From: Flavobacterium branchiarum
GTDB taxonomy: Bacteria > Bacteroidota > Bacteroidia > Flavobacteriales > Flavobacteriaceae
Direction: 5' to 3'
DNA length: 64,000 nucleotides
Assembly: GCF_030409845.1 (NCBI RefSeq)
Contig: NZ_JAUFQQ010000005.1
Coordinates: 62,001 to 126,000 of the forward strand
Shown in pieces: positions 23,838-49,055 of the stretch (positions within the stretch are counted from its first letter, which is position 1; each line of letters begins with the position of its first letter). The notes beneath the pieces are model-generated. The model made no database searches, had not been told where the DNA came from, and saw only the letters and a list, made by a program, of their open reading frames with translations. Made by a program: the position numbers and the translations under genes.

Positions 23838-24319
23838 TTTTTAGTCGCAGTCTCAGTATTCAGTTTTCAGGCTTTGTTTGCGGTTAGATCGAGCTTAGTC
23901 GCAGTCACAGTTGCAGTTTTCAGGCTTTGTTTGCGGTTAGATCGAGCTCAGTCGCAGTCGCGGTTTACAGTTTTCAGGCTTAGTTTGTGGTTAGATCGAG
24001 CTCAGTCGCAGTCGCGGTTTGCAGTTTTCAGGCTTAGATTGCGAGCTTTGTTTGTGATTACTGTACTGTAAACTGAATACTGAGACTTGAGACTGAAAAC
24101 TGAGACTGAAAACTGAGACTGAGACTGAAAACTGTAAACTGAATACTGCGACTGCAAACTGCGACTGAAAACTGAGACTGAAAACTGCGACTGAAAACTG
24201 AAAACTGAGACTAAATACTGCGACTGATAACCGCAAACCGAACACTGAGACTGTAAACTGCGACTGTAAACTGAGCACCGCGACTGAAAACCGAGACTGT
24301 AAACTAAACACTCTAAAAC
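23838..24319. repeat. inverted minisatellite region (CAGTCGCAGTTTTCAG family)
   Basis: Four direct copies of a 52-56-base unit (core GTCGCAGT...CAGTTTTCAGGCTT...TGCGGTTAGATCGAGC) run from about 23844 to 24060, then the same words in reverse orientation (CTGAAAACTGAGACTG, CTGCGACTG) fill 24065-24310. The whole region can fold on itself. It separates the RimK-fusion gene from the DUF421 gene. Reading frames inside it on both strands are composed of the repeat only and are not genes. A second copy of the same family is at 48.7-49.05 kb. Confidence 0.85.
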
Positions 24320-33123: not shown

Positions 33124-33559
33124 ATTATTTTGTATTTGAATGTCAAAATTCAACAAATCAATATTAAAAAACAACCTTTTTTGCTAATAATTTAAAATAC
33201 TACATCGATATTTTTAACAAGAATACTAACTTTTATCTTACAAAACCTGTATTCATCACTCCTAACAGCCGTTACAAGAGTAATACCTAAAATATATTCT
33301 AAAAAAAGCTTCGAATATAATTTCTAATAATAACCACTGTTTCATCTAAATCTTGAATAAAAACATGATTTACAGTAAGCCGAATCCTTTTTTTGTCAAA
33401 TAATTTAAAATCTTGACTTTATTTTAGAAAAATAACTCCTTAAATCTGAGATAAATATATGAATACCCCATTTTGAACCTTTAAATTTTCACAAATAATC
33501 AGTATTGGAATTTTGTAGTGCTAAATATTAAAATATTCGTAAAAATCCGATTAAATTTT
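33124..33559. other. 436-bp intergenic region upstream of the thr leader
   Basis: AT-rich spacer between hutH and the thr operon promoter. No ORF or repeat recognised. Confidence 0.4.
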
Positions 33560-33587
33560 TTGTACATTATAAAAACCTGTACATTTG
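33560..33587 (+). promoter_or_regulatory. thr operon promoter
   Basis: TTG (33560-33562), 17-base spacer, TACATTTG (33580-33587), a perfect TAnnTTTG. Transcription would start a few bases further, close to the leader ATG at 33599. One of the best promoter matches in the window. Confidence 0.7.
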
Positions 33588-33598
33588 GAAAATCAAAA

Positions 33599-33697
33599 AT
33601 GAAAGATAACAGTATAAAATATCACTCTTCGATAACAACTCAAAACTGGGTTGCAATTACTGCTACAACAACTTCTACGATTACTACTACCCCTTAG
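33599..33697 (+). CDS. threonine operon leader peptide
   Basis: A 32-residue peptide with 10 Thr and 4 Ile. It begins MKDNSIKYHSS; residues 20-31 carry 8 of the 10 Thr. It lies just after the promoter and 109 bases before thrA. Thr and Ile are the end products regulated by the thr operon in attenuation systems, so this is very likely a regulatory leader. The stop codon is inside the palindrome TACCCCTTAGGGGTA, which is followed by a short T-run (CATTTTTAC). No U-tract terminator of classical strength is seen, so the mechanism (attenuation versus translation-linked control) is open. Confidence 0.72.
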   Translation: MKDNSIKYHSSITTQNWVAITATTTSTITTTP

Positions 33698-33702
33698 GGG
33701 TA
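33688..33702 (+). promoter_or_regulatory. hairpin overlapping the leader stop codon
   Basis: Perfect palindrome TACCCC-TTA-GGGGTA containing the leader UAG, followed by TACATTTTTAC. Translating ribosomes would open it; candidate attenuator. Confidence 0.5.
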
Positions 33703-33805
33703 TACATTTTTACATATAATCCAGGCTATCCATACTTTTTTTCTTGAAAGAAAAAAGGCATTGAATACGTATAAACACTTGCATTTACAAAATAACACAC
33801 ACACA

Positions 33806-36253
33806 ATGAAAATATTAAAATTTGGTGGAACTTCGGTCGCCAATGCAGAAAATATAAAACGAGTTTTAGCAATTGTAAACCAAAAATCAGAACAAGATCA
33901 ATTAATAGTTGTCGTTTCTGCTTTAAGCAAAGTAACTGATTTACTTCAGGCTGCTGCCGCAAAAGCCGCTTCTAACGATGAAAGTTATAAAGATATAGTT
34001 GCCGAAATAGAGAAAAAACACTTAGATACTCTAAAAGCGTTGATTCCTGTTAGCGAGCAAAGTAGCTTATTAAGCCACGTAAAAAGAATCATAAACCACC
34101 TTGAAACATTACTTGACGGTTGTTTCTTATTGGGTGAGTTATCTAATAGAACTGCCGATACTATCCTTAGTTTTGGTGAATTGCTTTCGTCATATATCAT
34201 TGCCGAAGCTTTAAAACAAACAAATAAAAATAGCGGTTATAAAGACAGCCGTGAACTGATTAAAACGAACAACCACTTTGGTAAAGCTGCTGTAAATTTT
34301 GAAGTTACAAACCAATTAATACGTGATTATTTCTCAGAAAATAAAGCGCAGGTTGTAATCATGCCCGGTTTTATTGCTTCCTCTCTCGATGGAATCATTA
34401 CTACTTTAGGCCGTGGTGGATCTGACTATTCGGCTGCAATCTTGGCGGGAGCTCTTAATGCTGAAGTATTAGAAATATGGACTGACGTAAACGGAATGTA
34501 CACTGCCAATCCTAAAATTGTAAAACAAGCGCAACCAATTGCAACGATCTCTTATCAAGAAGCGATGGAGTTATCACACTTTGGTGCTAAGGTTTTATAT
34601 CCACCTACAATTCAGCCTGTTTTAAGAAAAAACATTCCTATTGTAATCAAGAATACTTTTGAACCTGAATCGGAAGGGACTTATATTTCGAATCACGTTT
34701 CCTCAAAAGATACTATTGTAAAAGGAATCAGCCATATCGATAGTATTTCATTAATTACTCTTGAAGGTCCTGGAATGATTGGAGTTTCGGGTTCGTCAAA
34801 GCGTCTTTTTGAAGTTTTATCGAATGAAAGTATCAATGTTATTTTTATAACTCAAGCTTCATCTGAGCATTCTATTTGTATTGGTATTTTAAATGCTGAT
34901 GCTGATAATGCGGAACAAGCAATCAATCGTGCTTTTGAAGTAGAAATTACTCAAAACAAAGTTGATCCTTGCATCGTTGAGAAAAACCTTTGCATCATCG
35001 CTTTGGTTGGTGAAAACATGAAAAACCACCAAGGTTTAAGCGGAAGAATGTTTAGCACTCTAGGAAAAAACAACGTGAATATTCGCGCTATTGCTCAAGG
35101 CGCATCTGAGAGAAACATTTCGGTTGTAATTAACGAGCGTGATGTAAAAAAAGCACTGAATACATTACACGAAAATTTCTTTGAAGAAAACACCAAACAG
35201 CTTAACCTATTTGTAATGGGAGTTGGAAATGTGGGCGAAAAATTCATTGAACAGATTCACAATCAAAGAAAGTTTTTAAAAGAAAACCTAAAGATAAATG
35301 TTCGCGTTATTGCTTTGTCTAATTCAAGAAAAATGATTTTTGATGAAGATAGTATTTCGCTTAAAGAATGGCAATCGGCTCTTGAAAATGGAGAAACTGC
35401 CGATAAGGATACTTTTATAGCGCGTGCTAAAGATTTGAATTTACGTAACAGTATTTTTGTTGACATTACTGCAAACGCAAGCGTATCTGAAACTTATGAA
35501 GAGTTCCTAAAACAAAGTATTGCGGTAGTTACTTGTAACAAAATTGCTTGTTCTTCTGAATATGACAATTATAAAAAACTAAAAAACCTATCTCGCCAGT
35601 TTAATGCTCCGTTTTTATTCGAAACGAATGTGGGTGCGGGATTACCAATTATAGATACTGTAAAAAACTTAATTGCTTCGGGTGATAAAGTCCACAAAAT
35701 ACAAGCTGTTCTATCAGGAAGTTTGAATTTTATCTTTAATAATTTTGATGAGAATAATTCTTTCCACGATGTGGTAAAAGAAGCCGGAGTACAAGGATTT
35801 ACTGAACCAGATCCTAAAATTGATTTAAGCGGAATTGATGTAGCTCGTAAAATCCTTATTCTGATTCGCGAAAGCGGTTATGAAATGGATATCGATGCTA
35901 TCGAAAATGAATCTTTCATGCCTGCTGAATCGCTTGCAACAACTAATAATGAAGACTTTTTTGCATCGCTAACAAAACATGCACCGCATTTTAAAGCTAT
36001 TTATGATGAAGCGTTGAGTAAAGACTCTAGATTAAAATATGTTGCGCAATTTGAAAACGGAAAAGCTAGCGTTGGCTTACAGTTTATCCCTAAAGATCAT
36101 CCTTTCTATAATCTAGAAGGAAAAGATAATATCGTATTGTTCTATACAGATCGTTATGTAGATCAGCCTTTGCTAATAAAAGGTGCTGGTGCCGGAGCTG
36201 CAGTTACTGCTTCAGGGATTTTTGCAGATGTAATTCGCATAGGAAACGTTTAA
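33806..36253 (+). CDS. thrA: bifunctional aspartate kinase / homoserine dehydrogenase I
   Basis: Catalyses the first and third steps from aspartate to threonine. At 815 residues it holds an aspartokinase domain (about 1-290, opening MKILKFGGTSVANAENI; KFGGTSVAN is the kinase signature), ACT regulatory region (about 310-455), and a homoserine dehydrogenase domain (about 465-815; VMGVGNVG nucleotide-binding turn, and ETNVGAGLPIIDTVKNL). The ATG used gives the conserved MKILKFGG; an in-frame TTG 45 bases upstream is rejected. First gene of thrABC; the threonine-rich leader and promoter lie directly upstream. Confidence 0.96.
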   Translation: MKILKFGGTSVANAENIKRVLAIVNQKSEQDQLIVVVSALSKVTDLLQAAAAKAASNDESYKDIVAEIEKKHLDTLKALIPVSEQSSLLSHVKRIINHLETLLDGCFLLGELSNRTADTILSFGELLSSYIIAEALKQTNKNSGYKDSRELIKTNNHFGKAAVNFEVTNQLIRDYFSENKAQVVIMPGFIASSLDGIITTLGRGGSDYSAAILAGALNAEVLEIWTDVNGMYTANPKIVKQAQPIATISYQEAMELSHFGAKVLYPPTIQPVLRKNIPIVIKNTFEPESEGTYISNHVSSKDTIVKGISHIDSISLITLEGPGMIGVSGSSKRLFEVLSNESINVIFITQASSEHSICIGILNADADNAEQAINRAFEVEITQNKVDPCIVEKNLCIIALVGENMKNHQGLSGRMFSTLGKNNVNIRAIAQGASERNISVVINERDVKKALNTLHENFFEENTKQLNLFVMGVGNVGEKFIEQIHNQRKFLKENLKINVRVIALSNSRKMIFDEDSISLKEWQSALENGETADKDTFIARAKDLNLRNSIFVDITANASVSETYEEFLKQSIAVVTCNKIACSSEYDNYKKLKNLSRQFNAPFLFETNVGAGLPIIDTVKNLIASGDKVHKIQAVLSGSLNFIFNNFDENNSFHDVVKEAGVQGFTEPDPKIDLSGIDVARKILILIRESGYEMDIDAIENESFMPAESLATTNNEDFFASLTKHAPHFKAIYDEALSKDSRLKYVAQFENGKASVGLQFIPKDHPFYNLEGKDNIVLFYTDRYVDQPLLIKGAGAGAAVTASGIFADVIRIGNV

Positions 36254-36552
36254 TAAGGTACAAAGGCTCAAAGGTACTGAGTCACTAAGGCTCAAAGCCA
36301 CAGAGGTTCATAGGGACAAAGTTTACGTCTTTGAGAATATGTTTTTTGTTTCAAGTTTCAAGTTTAAGCCTCTGCAACTTTGAGCCTTTGAGCCTGAAAC
36401 TTGAAACTTGAAACTTGAAATAATAGATAAATAGCAAAACCTTTGATTATCTGCAACTTTGAACCTTTGAACCTGAAACAAATAATAAAAAATAATGATT
36501 GGCAAAAACCTTTGAACCTCTGAGCCTTTGCCTCTCTGAACCTTAAAAGAAA
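36254..36552. repeat. CTTTGAACC-family inverted repeats between thrA and thrB
   Basis: Built from CAAAGGCTCAAAGG-type words, then the opposite orientation (GAGCCTTTGAGCC, TTGAACCTTTGAACC) plus three copies of TTGAAACTTGAAAC. The halves can pair into a hairpin. Related sequence occurs at 42.4-42.55 and 55.5-55.68 kb. No gene inside. Confidence 0.75.
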
Positions 36553-37488
36553 ATGAAAGAAATAAAACTATTTTGTCCTGCAACAATTGCCAATCTCTCG
36601 TGTGGATTTGATGTTCTTGGACTATGTTTAGAAACTGCGGGTGATGAAATGATTGTTCGTGAATCAGATCAAAAAGGGATTCGCATCACTAAAATTGTGG
36701 GTGCCGATTTACCTCTAGAAACGGAAAAAAATGTAGCTGGAGTTGCTGCTTTGGCCATGCTTGAAGCTTACGAAAGAGATTTTAACCCAATAACCGTTGG
36801 ATTTGAAATTGAGATTTATAAAAATATCAAAGCCGGAAGCGGCATCGGAAGTAGCGCTGCGAGTTCTGCTGGAGCCGTTTTTGGAATTAATGAATTATTA
36901 GGAAAACCATATTCTAGAAAAGATTTGGTTCAATTTGCTATGCAAGGTGAAAAATTAGCAAGCGGAAACGCTCATGCCGATAATGTTGCCCCTGCCCTTT
37001 TGGGTGGATTTACATTGGTAAGAAGCTACAGCCCGCTAGATATTATAAAAATTGATAGTCCCGAAGAATTATATGCTACGGTTGTTCATCCTCAAATTGA
37101 GTTAAAAACATCTGATGCGCGTTCGGTATTAAAACAAACGGTTTCCTTAAAAAGTGCCATTATGCAATGGGGAAATGTAGGCGGATTAATCGCTGGTTTA
37201 TATACCAAAGATTATGATTTAATTGGTCGTTCGCTTCATGATGAAATCGTTGAACCGCTACGAAGCGTATTGATTCCTGGTTTTGATTCAATCAAACAAG
37301 CGGCAATTGAAAATGGCGCATTAGGTTCTGGAATTTCAGGTTCTGGCCCTTCTATTTTTGCTTTAAGCAAAGGAAAAGAAACTGCTGTAAAAATTGCAAA
37401 AGCCATGAGCGAAGTATATGATAACATCAATTTACCGTATGAAATTCATATCTCGCAAATAAATCCGGATGGAGTTCGTATTTTGTAA
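36553..37488 (+). CDS. thrB: homoserine kinase
   Basis: GHMP-family kinase that phosphorylates homoserine for threonine synthesis. The 311-residue chain has the ATP-binding GSGIGSSAASSAGAVFG loop (about 96-112), FCPATIANLSCGFDVLG opening (about 5-21), and the C-terminal GSGISGSGPSIFALS loop (about 258-272), all standard GHMP motifs. ATG start directly before KEIKLFCPATIAN. It sits between thrA and thrC, separated on both sides by repeat DNA, so it is in an operon whose spacers have been colonised. Confidence 0.95.
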   Translation: MKEIKLFCPATIANLSCGFDVLGLCLETAGDEMIVRESDQKGIRITKIVGADLPLETEKNVAGVAALAMLEAYERDFNPITVGFEIEIYKNIKAGSGIGSSAASSAGAVFGINELLGKPYSRKDLVQFAMQGEKLASGNAHADNVAPALLGGFTLVRSYSPLDIIKIDSPEELYATVVHPQIELKTSDARSVLKQTVSLKSAIMQWGNVGGLIAGLYTKDYDLIGRSLHDEIVEPLRSVLIPGFDSIKQAAIENGALGSGISGSGPSIFALSKGKETAVKIAKAMSEVYDNINLPYEIHISQINPDGVRIL

Positions 37489-37616: not shown

Positions 37617-38906
37617 ATGAAATATTATAGTTTAAACCATAATGCCCCAAAAGTTTCTTTTCAGGAAGCTGTAATACAAGGATTAGCAAGTGATAAAGGA
37701 TTATATTTTCCTGATAACATTACCGCTTTAGATCCTTCATTTTTTGACACAATCGAAAATTTAAGTCATGAGCAAATTGCTTTTGAAGCTATCAAGCAGT
37801 TTGTAGGCGATGAAATTCCAGAAACTGTTTTAAAAGAAATCATTGCTGCCACTTTGTGTTTTGATTTTCCTGTGGTGAAAGTCGAAAACAGAATCTACTC
37901 TCTTGAGCTGTTTCACGGTCCAACAATGGCTTTTAAAGATGTTGGCGCCCGATTTATGTCACGTTGTTTGGCATACTTTAATAAAGATAAAAAAGACGCT
38001 AAAAATACCGTTTTAGTAGCTACTTCTGGAGATACGGGTGGCGCAGTTGCTAGCGGATTTCTTGGTGTTGATGGCGTAGAGGTTGTGATTTTATATCCAT
38101 CTGGAAAAGTAAGCGATATTCAGGAAAAACAATTGACTACTTTAGGACAGAACATCAAAGCATTGGAAGTTGATGGTGTTTTTGATGATTGTCAGGATAT
38201 GGTTAAAAAAGCGTTTTTAGATGAATCATTAGCACATAAAAACCTAACCTCAGCAAATTCAATTAATATTGCACGTTGGTTGCCACAAATGTTCTATTTC
38301 TTCTTTGCGTACAAAGCATTGAAAAGTCAGAACAAACCTTTGATCTTCTCTTGTCCAAGTGGGAATTTCGGAAATATCTGTGCTGGAATTATGGCTAAGA
38401 AATTAGGATTGCCAATTCAACATTTCGTAGCTTCTACAAATGTAAATGATACAGTTCCTAGATTCTTAGAAAATGGGAAATACGATCCTAAACCTTCTAA
38501 GGCTACAATCTCAAATGCAATGGATGTTGGAAACCCAAGCAACTTTATCAGAATTCAAGAATTATATAATAATGATTTAAAGGCTTTCGAAAAAGATTTC
38601 TCTTCTTACAGTTATACCGATGAAGAAACACTTGAAGCTATGAAACAAATCTATAAAACGGATGGTTACATTGCTGAACCACACGGAGCAGTTGGTTATT
38701 TAGGATTGAAGAAAGAATTACAAAAACATGAAAATGCAATTGGTATCTTCTTAGAAACTGCTCACCCAATTAAATTCCTAGATGTTGTTGAACCTGCATT
38801 GGGAATTACACTTCCAATTCCGGCGCAAATAGAAAGTGTTATGAATAAAGAGAAAGTAAGTACTAAAATTGCTTCTTATGAGGAGTTGAAAGCTTTCTTG
38901 GGGTAA
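37617..38906 (+). CDS. thrC: threonine synthase
   Basis: PLP enzyme that converts phosphohomoserine to threonine. The 429-residue chain begins MKYYSLNHNAP, with the PLP lysine in HGPTMAFKDVGARFM (about 100), and ATSGDTGGAVASGFLGVDG as phosphate-binding loop; SGNFGNICAGIMAKKLG and AVGYLGLK follow. It is of the longer threonine-synthase type. An earlier in-frame GTG would read through the GC-rich element upstream and is rejected. Last of thrABC; an imperfect hairpin follows (38925-38975). Confidence 0.95.
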   Translation: MKYYSLNHNAPKVSFQEAVIQGLASDKGLYFPDNITALDPSFFDTIENLSHEQIAFEAIKQFVGDEIPETVLKEIIAATLCFDFPVVKVENRIYSLELFHGPTMAFKDVGARFMSRCLAYFNKDKKDAKNTVLVATSGDTGGAVASGFLGVDGVEVVILYPSGKVSDIQEKQLTTLGQNIKALEVDGVFDDCQDMVKKAFLDESLAHKNLTSANSINIARWLPQMFYFFFAYKALKSQNKPLIFSCPSGNFGNICAGIMAKKLGLPIQHFVASTNVNDTVPRFLENGKYDPKPSKATISNAMDVGNPSNFIRIQELYNNDLKAFEKDFSSYSYTDEETLEAMKQIYKTDGYIAEPHGAVGYLGLKKELQKHENAIGIFLETAHPIKFLDVVEPALGITLPIPAQIESVMNKEKVSTKIASYEELKAFLG

Positions 38907-48669: not shown

Positions 48670-49055
48670 TTTTCTTAGTTTATAGTCGCAGTCTTCAGTT
48701 TTCAGTCTCAGTCTTGGTTTGTGGTAATTTAGTTTACAATATACAGTCGCAGTTTTTAGCCTTGGTTTGCGGTAATTAGTTTGCAGTCGCAGTATTCAGT
48801 TTTCAGGCTTTGTTTGCGGTAATTAGTTTGCAGTCGCAGTTTACAGTTTGCAGACTTGGTTTGCGGTAATTTAGTTTACAGTCGTAGTTTTAAGTCTTTT
48901 TTTGGCGATAATTACTTTCGTATACTAGTTTAAAAAACTGAAGACTGAGACTGCCCTTCAACTCCGCTCAGGATGACACTGAGACTGTAAACTCAAAACT
49001 GTGACTGAAGACTGTGACTGAAGACTGTGACTGAAGACTGAAAACTGAAACAGTA
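48670..49055. repeat. second inverted minisatellite (CAGTCGCAGTTTTCAG family)
   Basis: Four forward copies (CAGTCGCAG...TTGGTTTGCGGTAATT) run from about 48685 to 48925, then the words reverse (CTGAAGACTGAGACTG, CTGTGACTGAAGACTG) to about 49055. An insertion CCCTTCAACTCCGCTCAGGA lies in the reversed half. Same family as at 23.8-24.3 kb. No gene. Confidence 0.85.

Follow-up and report, generated by a model that had tools for sequence, protein, structure and literature searches.

A threonine- and isoleucine-rich leader ahead of thrABC in Flavobacterium: a probable ribosome-mediated attenuator without a canonical terminator

How can a leader peptide control a threonine operon when no canonical terminator stands between the leader and the first gene? 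This question is raised by 64,000 nucleotides of Flavobacterium branchiarum DNA (assembly GCF_030409845.1, contig NZ_JAUFQQ010000005.1, positions 62,001 to 126,000 of the forward strand; this whole stretch is called the window, its numbering is used throughout, and all features given below lie on the + strand), in which a short open reading frame (ORF) rich in Thr and Ile codons precedes the operon thrABC. A sequence-only reading of the window had proposed translation-coupled control of this operon. Our analysis leads us to believe, with a probability of roughly 60%, that the thr leader is a threonine/isoleucine-sensing, ribosome-mediated attenuator of thrABC in which the stalled ribosome would directly block a small hairpin, HP1, at the end of the leader. 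Very probably, to judge from the comparison of related loci, the leader lets the cell turn thrABC on upon threonine shortage.

The leader peptide and its conservation

The leader ORF extends from 33599 to 33697 (ATG at 33599, stop TAG at 33695-33697) and encodes the 32 residues MKDNSIKYHSSITTQNWVAITATTTSTITTTP*, of which 10 are Thr and 4 are Ile, as the sequence-only reading had counted. The background in the long ORFs of the window is 5.7% Thr and 8.6% Ile. Among 481 ORFs of 12-60 amino acids starting with ATG on either strand of the window, the thr leader alone has at least 5 Thr in any 12 residues; it holds 8. The ORF is preceded by a promoter of the Bacteroidota type, TTTG-N17-TACATTTG (33559-33587), with TTG at 33560-33562, N17 and TACATTTG at 33580-33587, exactly where it had been placed before. 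Transcription is expected to start a few nucleotides past it, at about 33592, a site predicted from the known behaviour of this promoter type; the leader ATG would therefore lie very near the 5' end of the RNA. As far as the sequence tells, a short ORF with a run of regulatory codons lies between promoter and thrA, which is the arrangement expected of an attenuator.

The leader ends inside the CCCC/GGGG palindrome that had already been noticed, ACCCC TTA GGGGT at 33689-33701, which as RNA is the hairpin HP1, ACCCC-UUA-GGGGU. The last Thr codon of the leader, ACC, falls within the 5' arm of HP1, and the leader stop codon overlaps the loop and the first G of the 3' arm. The sequence-only reading had named missing conservation of the leader in related genomes, along with missing premature transcript ends, as grounds for its refutation. 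The leader withstood the comparison, which took in 190 regions upstream of thrA: the window locus (L001), L005, 80 loci chosen by thrA identity and 108 loci from other genera of the family. The first 82 are referred to as the genus set, 76 of the 80 being titled Flavobacterium; L005 and L062 are identical upstream, and the 82 rows represent 81 genomes. For the family, 299 genomes were searched and the upstream regions of 110 were inspected (this genome and G127 included), drawn from the best of the listed thrA matches, with the last 20 picked by hand. Such a choice under-represents distant and unfused thrA genes.

HP1, searched for as ACCC..GGG 5' of thrA, was present in 179 of the 190 loci (its stem is nearly invariant), and a TAnnTTTG promoter element lies 40-190 nt 5' of it in 174 of these 179, as against 11.8% of shuffled sequences. 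A leader was counted if an ATG stood in the frame of the ACC codon of HP1, if the 13 codons up to and including this ACC held at least 4 Thr/Ile, and if a stop codon followed within 24 nt. Such an in-frame leader was found in 81 of the 82 genus rows (80 of 81 genomes) and in 87 of the 108 other loci of the family, and the gaps inside the ORF in the genus alignment are multiples of three. In-frame conservation and the phase of the gaps support the earlier proposal of translation-coupled control of thrABC, which appears well supported by this comparison; the same comparison establishes the promoter motif, the coding nature of the leader and, as described below, its in-frame codon bias.

The only genus row without a leader by this count is L083 (Flavobacterium johnsoniae CI04), which has TCG for the stop codon TAG, so that the leader runs for 61 codons across the downstream hairpin HP2 (see below), with HP1 still paired; this stop loss is a natural variant of the thr switch. 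The 21 failures outside the genus comprise 11 loci in which no HP1-like sequence was found (L117, L124, L128, L160, L162, L166, L169, L182, L183, L184 and L193), six without an in-frame ATG (L008, L023, L028, L029, L139 and L149) and four that miss another part of the definition (L145, L148, L156 and L187).

The Thr/Ile codons are concentrated in leader codons 20-31 (33656-33691), which by the positional Thr/Ile frequencies we propose as the stalling zone. In the genus, with the ACC of HP1 taken as codon 0, Thr stands at codons -4 to -1 in 94-100% of cases; codon 0 itself is always Thr because the search pattern requires ACC. In the 97 HP1-bearing loci outside the genus, to which no Thr/Ile filter was applied, the frequency of Thr/Ile is 55, 63, 71, 44, 78 and 91% from codon -6 to codon -1 and 12-41% from codon -20 to codon -7, and over codons -6 to -1 the leader frame has 67% Thr/Ile versus 4% and 3% in the other two frames. 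A ribosome covers about 12-15 nt beyond its A site; with one of the last six codons in the A site it would cover the 5' arm of HP1. Beyond the genus, the early part of the peptide is largely exchanged, and what persists is the Thr/Ile-rich end together with the HP1 codons, often with endings such as ..TTP*, TTPLG*, TTPFGV* or TTLWGC*. Retention of this end with replacement of the remainder therefore fits a sensor and not a functional peptide.

Terminator, antiterminator and folded elements

In a trp/his/thr-type attenuator the leader is followed by an intrinsic terminator. This is missing here. A strict scan from HP1 to thrA (stem of at least 6 pairs, at least 3 G-C pairs, at least 6 U in 8 nt) was passed by only 4 of 179 loci versus 2.6 expected from shuffles, by HP1 itself in L010, L144 and L191 and by a far-downstream site in L070. 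The same scan found terminators in all three positive controls, the classical-looking attenuators upstream of hisG (L254, MPLIQLHHHHFHYCSQAMC), pheA (L255, MSHNRFYFSNTYYFFFSRSKDCAMVI) and ilvD (L256, MRISIIIISVINVNVVITYT) of the same genome, and it was also positive in the thr leaders L244 and L250 from other Bacteroidota; L253 is doubtful, and the match in L238 is located at the outermost upstream edge of the segment examined. The earlier statement that a strong U-tract terminator is absent thus holds in nearly all loci of the family that were scanned. Leader attenuation is apparently at home in this genome, and since canonical attenuators are used elsewhere in it, the thr leader is the exception. 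A looser rule asks for 5 U within 8 nt, counted from 0-2 nt past HP1. It was reached by 74 of 82 genus rows, where HP1 thus has a modest U stretch behind it, and by 18 of 92 non-genus loci; this test and those of fold and spacing below cover the 174 HP1 loci that have the promoter motif. A role of HP2 as the terminator was not supported: no U tract was seen after it in the loci inspected, and the strict scan gave no excess.

An antiterminator was sought among five candidate long-range pairings, each compared between a locus with itself and across loci in 94 rows (the 92 non-genus loci, L001 and L005). None passed. On average, the share of cross pairs that equalled or exceeded a locus's own pair in stability (0.5 is chance) was 0.426 for leader start with linker (the segment that follows HP1), 0.489 for mid-leader with linker, 0.508 for Thr codons with linker, 0.573 for GGGG with linker and 0.542 for linker with downstream sequence, and at most 5 of 94 rows were within the top 5%. 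Two complementarities that had caught the eye, CUGGGUU/AAUCCAG in the window and, in other genera, ACGGAC near the leader start with GUCCGU, were among the pairings put to this cross-locus test, and we claim neither. As no antiterminator pairing passed and the placement of the codons fits occlusion, we read HP1 as the hairpin of the OFF state, which would be kept open by a stalled ribosome.

What else is folded in this region? RNAalifold predicted three hairpins from the 82 genus rows. HP0 (33636-33653, CAACUC/GGGUUG) lies within the leader ORF, 5' of the main Thr/Ile run. In the genus, 97.9% of its cells are paired, changes on both sides occur at 4 of 6 pairs (reached by 2 of 500 shuffles), and 10 cells are doubly changed as compared to 1.3 in shuffles, with all slid controls lower; in its count of further pair types HP0 does not exceed the shuffles (160/500). 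HP2 (33735-33758, CUUUUUUUC/GAAAAAAGG) follows about 33 nt past HP1 and has no U tract after it. In the genus, 96.5% of its cells are paired, both-side changes occur at 4 of 6 pairs (20/500 shuffles), and 11 cells are doubly changed versus 3.3, with the caveat that the stem is U/A-rich and that a slide by +3 gives a covariation score of 0.228 versus 0.238. In a second lineage of 24 loci the sequence of HP2 is different and its support stronger than in the genus: 15 doubly changed cells versus 3.4 and 5 of 7 pairs (1/500 shuffles). Covariation therefore argues for HP0 as a folded element in the genus, and for HP2 in the genus and one more lineage. Of the alignments used, A1 holds 98 of 104 prepared rows (L145, L147, L153, L156, L174 and L187 left out) and A2 24 of 27 (L153, L187 and L191 left out).

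Between HP1 and HP2 lies a linker with the conserved motif ACAUAUAAUCC (33712-33722), which is predicted to be unpaired. Compared to dinucleotide shuffles of the same region, the linker folds no better (mean z +0.47 in 91 of the 92 non-genus loci and +0.48 in 11 of 12 genus rows taken as representatives of the 82), and the region of HP2 folds better (-1.13 and -1.57 in the 92 and the 12). The values are -0.70 and -2.06 for the HP0 region and -0.63 and +0.06 for the Thr run. Taken whole, the region 33590-33830 has only a modest advantage in folding over its shuffles (z -1.54, equalled by 13 of 200). Comparison also shows the spacing around HP1 to be conserved: in the loci with a stem of at least 5 pairs, to which the medians are confined, HP0 and HP1 are 38 nt apart in the genus (77 of 82 rows with a clear stem) and 35 nt elsewhere (55 of 92), and HP1 and HP2 are 33 nt (76 of 82) and 29 nt apart (53 of 92). 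The distance from HP1 to thrA is 167-204 nt in 39 of the 82 genus rows instead of 109-121 nt; the alignment has no such insertion up to 75 nt past HP1, and the extra sequence thus lies farther downstream, beyond HP2. Many of the rows with the longer spacer (L037, for example) carry the repeat cagttttcagtttcagttcacag, short matches to which are also present in the window at 24092-24265 and 48682-48849.

A model for the thr leader and its competitors

According to the model that we favour, RNA polymerase would start at about 33592 with a ribosome close behind, because the start codon is near the 5' end of the RNA. HP0 would fold first. It is placed 5' of most of the sensing codons, like the pause hairpin of known leaders, and by this analogy it may synchronise the two machines by pausing the polymerase until the ribosome arrives. 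With ample Thr-tRNA (or Ile-tRNA) the ribosome would complete the leader and depart, HP1 would fold, and transcription into thrABC would be stopped or slowed. With Thr or Ile scarce the ribosome would stall in the last codons, which adjoin and run into the 5' arm of HP1, and would occupy this arm; HP1 then could not fold, and the polymerase would read through. In this model we infer translation with stalling, direct blocking of HP1 and the role of HP1 as the OFF state. The last step would be release of the RNA or a long pause at the AU-rich stretch after HP1, and HP1 could act on the polymerase by weak termination, by hairpin pausing or with the help of Rho.

Several observations speak against this model. 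With the U tract missing after HP1 in most genera, termination at HP1 is a conjecture, and none of the antiterminator pairings passed. The stem of HP1 is almost invariant, and covariation is therefore neither for nor against it. HP0 is missing from the predicted fold of the 24-locus second lineage, although it is present in a 27-locus consensus that contains those 24, and outside the genus the HP0 region is hardly distinct from the Thr run in its z value (-0.70 versus -0.63). In consensus folds of two further sets of family loci, 36 and 29 in number, HP1 alone is seen; alignment thus does not establish HP0 and HP2 in them, and outside the genus and one lineage hairpins other than HP1 have weak support. 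Moreover, the model gives neither the linker nor HP2 a role.

In another explanation, HP1 would itself be a weak but true intrinsic terminator in Flavobacterium. The leader would then be an ordinary attenuator in which the stalled ribosome covers the 5' arm of the terminator, with no separate antiterminator. The segment 33688-33702 was indeed scored as terminator-like, with the tail TACATTTTTA (14 such sites versus 10.2 in shuffles), the 5 U of the looser rule are there in 74 of 82 genus rows, and of the four strict passes three are due to HP1 itself. However, just 18 of the 92 non-genus loci reach even the loose rule, and strict passes stand at 4/179 versus 2.6 in shuffles, whereas the his, phe and ilv leaders pass in 3 of 3 cases; we consider this explanation rather unlikely. 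Rho-dependent output, by analogy to the tna operon, would put the decision into the linker: with the ribosome gone, Rho would load on this unpaired, YC-containing segment between HP1 and HP2, and a stalled ribosome would block it. The linker is conserved, adjoins the leader stop codon and is not more structured than shuffles, and a canonical terminator is missing; but with about 29-33 nt the linker is short for a classical rut site, and a tightly spaced HP2 would not be needed. We consider a role of Rho unlikely.

The leader might also act on the stability of the mRNA or on translation of thrA and not on transcription, if hairpins and stalled ribosome alter the access of RNases or the initiation at thrA. 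A covarying hairpin without U tract, HP2, just 5' of the operon would suit such a function. Against it, thrA starts 47 nt past HP2 in a stretch that is unpaired in the centroid fold, and roughly 50-90 nt of extra sequence between HP2 and thrA are tolerated in 39 of 82 genus rows; we regard it as improbable. That the ORF encodes a functional small protein, or that the repeats arose by chance beside unrelated hairpins, would agree with the similar length and N-terminal residues of the leaders within the genus, but hardly with the peptides outside it, which preserve chiefly their Thr/Ile-rich end and the codons of HP1, much else being replaced. We give this idea very little credence. Occlusion of HP1 by a ribosome stalled at Thr or Ile codons is the reading that we favour.

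Neighbours, relatives and meaning of the thr leader

Downstream of the leader follow thrA (33806-36253, ATG at 33806), coding for the bifunctional aspartate kinase/homoserine dehydrogenase I (NF006959 over cut-off), thrB (36553-37488), coding for homoserine kinase (NF002288 and TIGR00191 over cut-off), and thrC (37617-38906), coding for threonine synthase (TIGR00260 over cut-off). The closest named relatives are Flavobacterium species (thrA has 97% identity to that of F. frigoritolerans). The gap between thrA and thrB (36254-36552) has repeats of its own. A second thrA-like gene of the genome (L002) was considered as another bearer of the leader and rejected, as it has no Thr-rich leader within 500 nt. 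Over the whole window, the only Rfam match at gathering level was Flavo-1 (RF01705, 45202-45279, 75 bits), an orphan RNA motif of this bacterial group, and none was at the thr leader. A search of 33540-33840 with E up to 10 gave five matches, all far below their gathering scores, and Thr_leader was not among them.

Presence ahead of other operons was tested in this genome only, and elsewhere just upstream of thrA. HP1 as a general attenuator motif of this genome was rejected: CCCC..GGGG..ATATNNTCC occurs once, the his, phe and ilv leaders are without HP1 by eye, and the model R1 finds one strong place only (E 2.3e-8; next best 0.7). Misalignment of HP1 loops that differ in length left R1 with only 3 base pairs, and it therefore represents mainly sequence. 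Applied to 196 genomes of the order with strict filters, by which weak matches are lost, it matched 40 at E ≤0.01, 16 of them outside the family. Of these 16, seven were inspected; six lie ahead of thrA, and all seven have HP1 followed by an AUAU stretch. The seventh, L215 (genome G331, family f9), has a Thr leader with HP1 that precedes a thrB-like gene and not thrA. In family f5, Chryseobacterium-like by its inferred name, HP0 (CCGGAUUU/AUUCCGG or CCUGAA/UUUCAGG) and HP2 (UACUCUU/AAGAGUA) were seen by eye. At the level of the phylum, 114 genomes had a match and the upstream regions of 28 new loci (L226-L253) were inspected. By eye, HP1-like elements occur in L233, L234 and L236-L239 of these more distant Bacteroidota; two loci (L244 and L250) have canonical terminators, and several show none of these features. 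The thr leaders of L245, L252 and L253 end in a hairpin of swapped sense, ACGGGG-stop-CCCGU, with the stop codon again at the loop.

How does the thr leader compare to known systems? The enterobacterial thr leader (Rfam Thr_leader, RF00506) likewise has a Thr/Ile-rich leader peptide ahead of thrABC; the leader of Flavobacterium differs from it in having no match to this family in the Rfam searches and no canonical terminator hairpin with U tract, and in a hairpin arm that is made of the last leader codons. Like the thr leader, those of his, phe and ilvD in this genome have a short ORF rich in the relevant residues ahead of a biosynthetic gene; unlike it, each of them has a canonical terminator with a long U tract. 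L244 and L250 have a Thr/Ile-rich leader ahead of thrA as well, in contrast followed by long G+C-rich terminators with U tracts, and in L250 the leader segment GGAGGAAG is, by eye, complementary to the terminator segment CUUCCUCC, the classic antiterminator layout. In the trp layout, stalling shifts the pairing to an antiterminator, whereas no such pairing passed the test for the thr leader. In the pyrBI-type attenuator of E. coli, too, a ribosome close behind the polymerase directly stops folding of the downstream hairpin, but its signal is polymerase pausing at U residues and its hairpin is a full terminator. The tnaC/Rho leader of E. coli resembles the thr leader in that a ribosome stalled near the leader end would shield the RNA that follows; in contrast, free tryptophan is sensed there via a specific nascent peptide, and the codon bias of the thr leader points to charging of tRNA.

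The sequence-only reading had called attenuation little described in Bacteroidota. It is not undescribed: PMC9723704, on structured 5' regions of F. psychrophilum, a member of the same genus, reports strong clues that amino-acid operons are controlled by leader-peptide attenuation there, and elements shared across the family that include those of pheA and hisG; and the present genome has the his, phe and ilv attenuators mentioned above. In the main text of PMC9723704 neither threonine nor thrA occurs, and its Table S7 may hold an entry for thrA. PMC7366714 mentions attenuation-like short ORFs in B. thetaiotaomicron, and PMC4833913 treats reinitiation after leader genes and cites a comparative survey of 2010. 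Among the titles brought up by literature searches that left most subscription papers and all supplements aside, none describes this thr leader. The class of leader is already known; a missing terminator with a conserved element in its place was not found described.

It is tempting to speculate, and we do so tentatively, considering it possible but somewhat short of an even chance, that the thr attenuator of Flavobacteriaceae and of some families close to them has lost its intrinsic terminator. A compact arrangement of HP1, the AYAUAU..UCC linker and HP2 at near-fixed spacing might stop the polymerase by a route undescribed for amino-acid leaders, either by halting or pausing it at a hairpin that needs no U tract or through a factor that recognises the linker, and the switch would be simple occlusion with sensing codons that overlap the hairpin arm.

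The thr leader is a widespread RNA element that, in the searches of the window and of 33540-33840, matches no family of Rfam 15. Bacteroidota have unusual promoters and no Shine-Dalgarno sequences, and how tightly ribosome and polymerase are coupled in them is unsettled. A leader that requires the ribosome to be at HP1 before HP1 folds would be a natural reporter of this coupling. The his, phe and ilv leaders with their ordinary terminators would be built-in controls, and the thr leader would isolate what stops the polymerase without a U tract.

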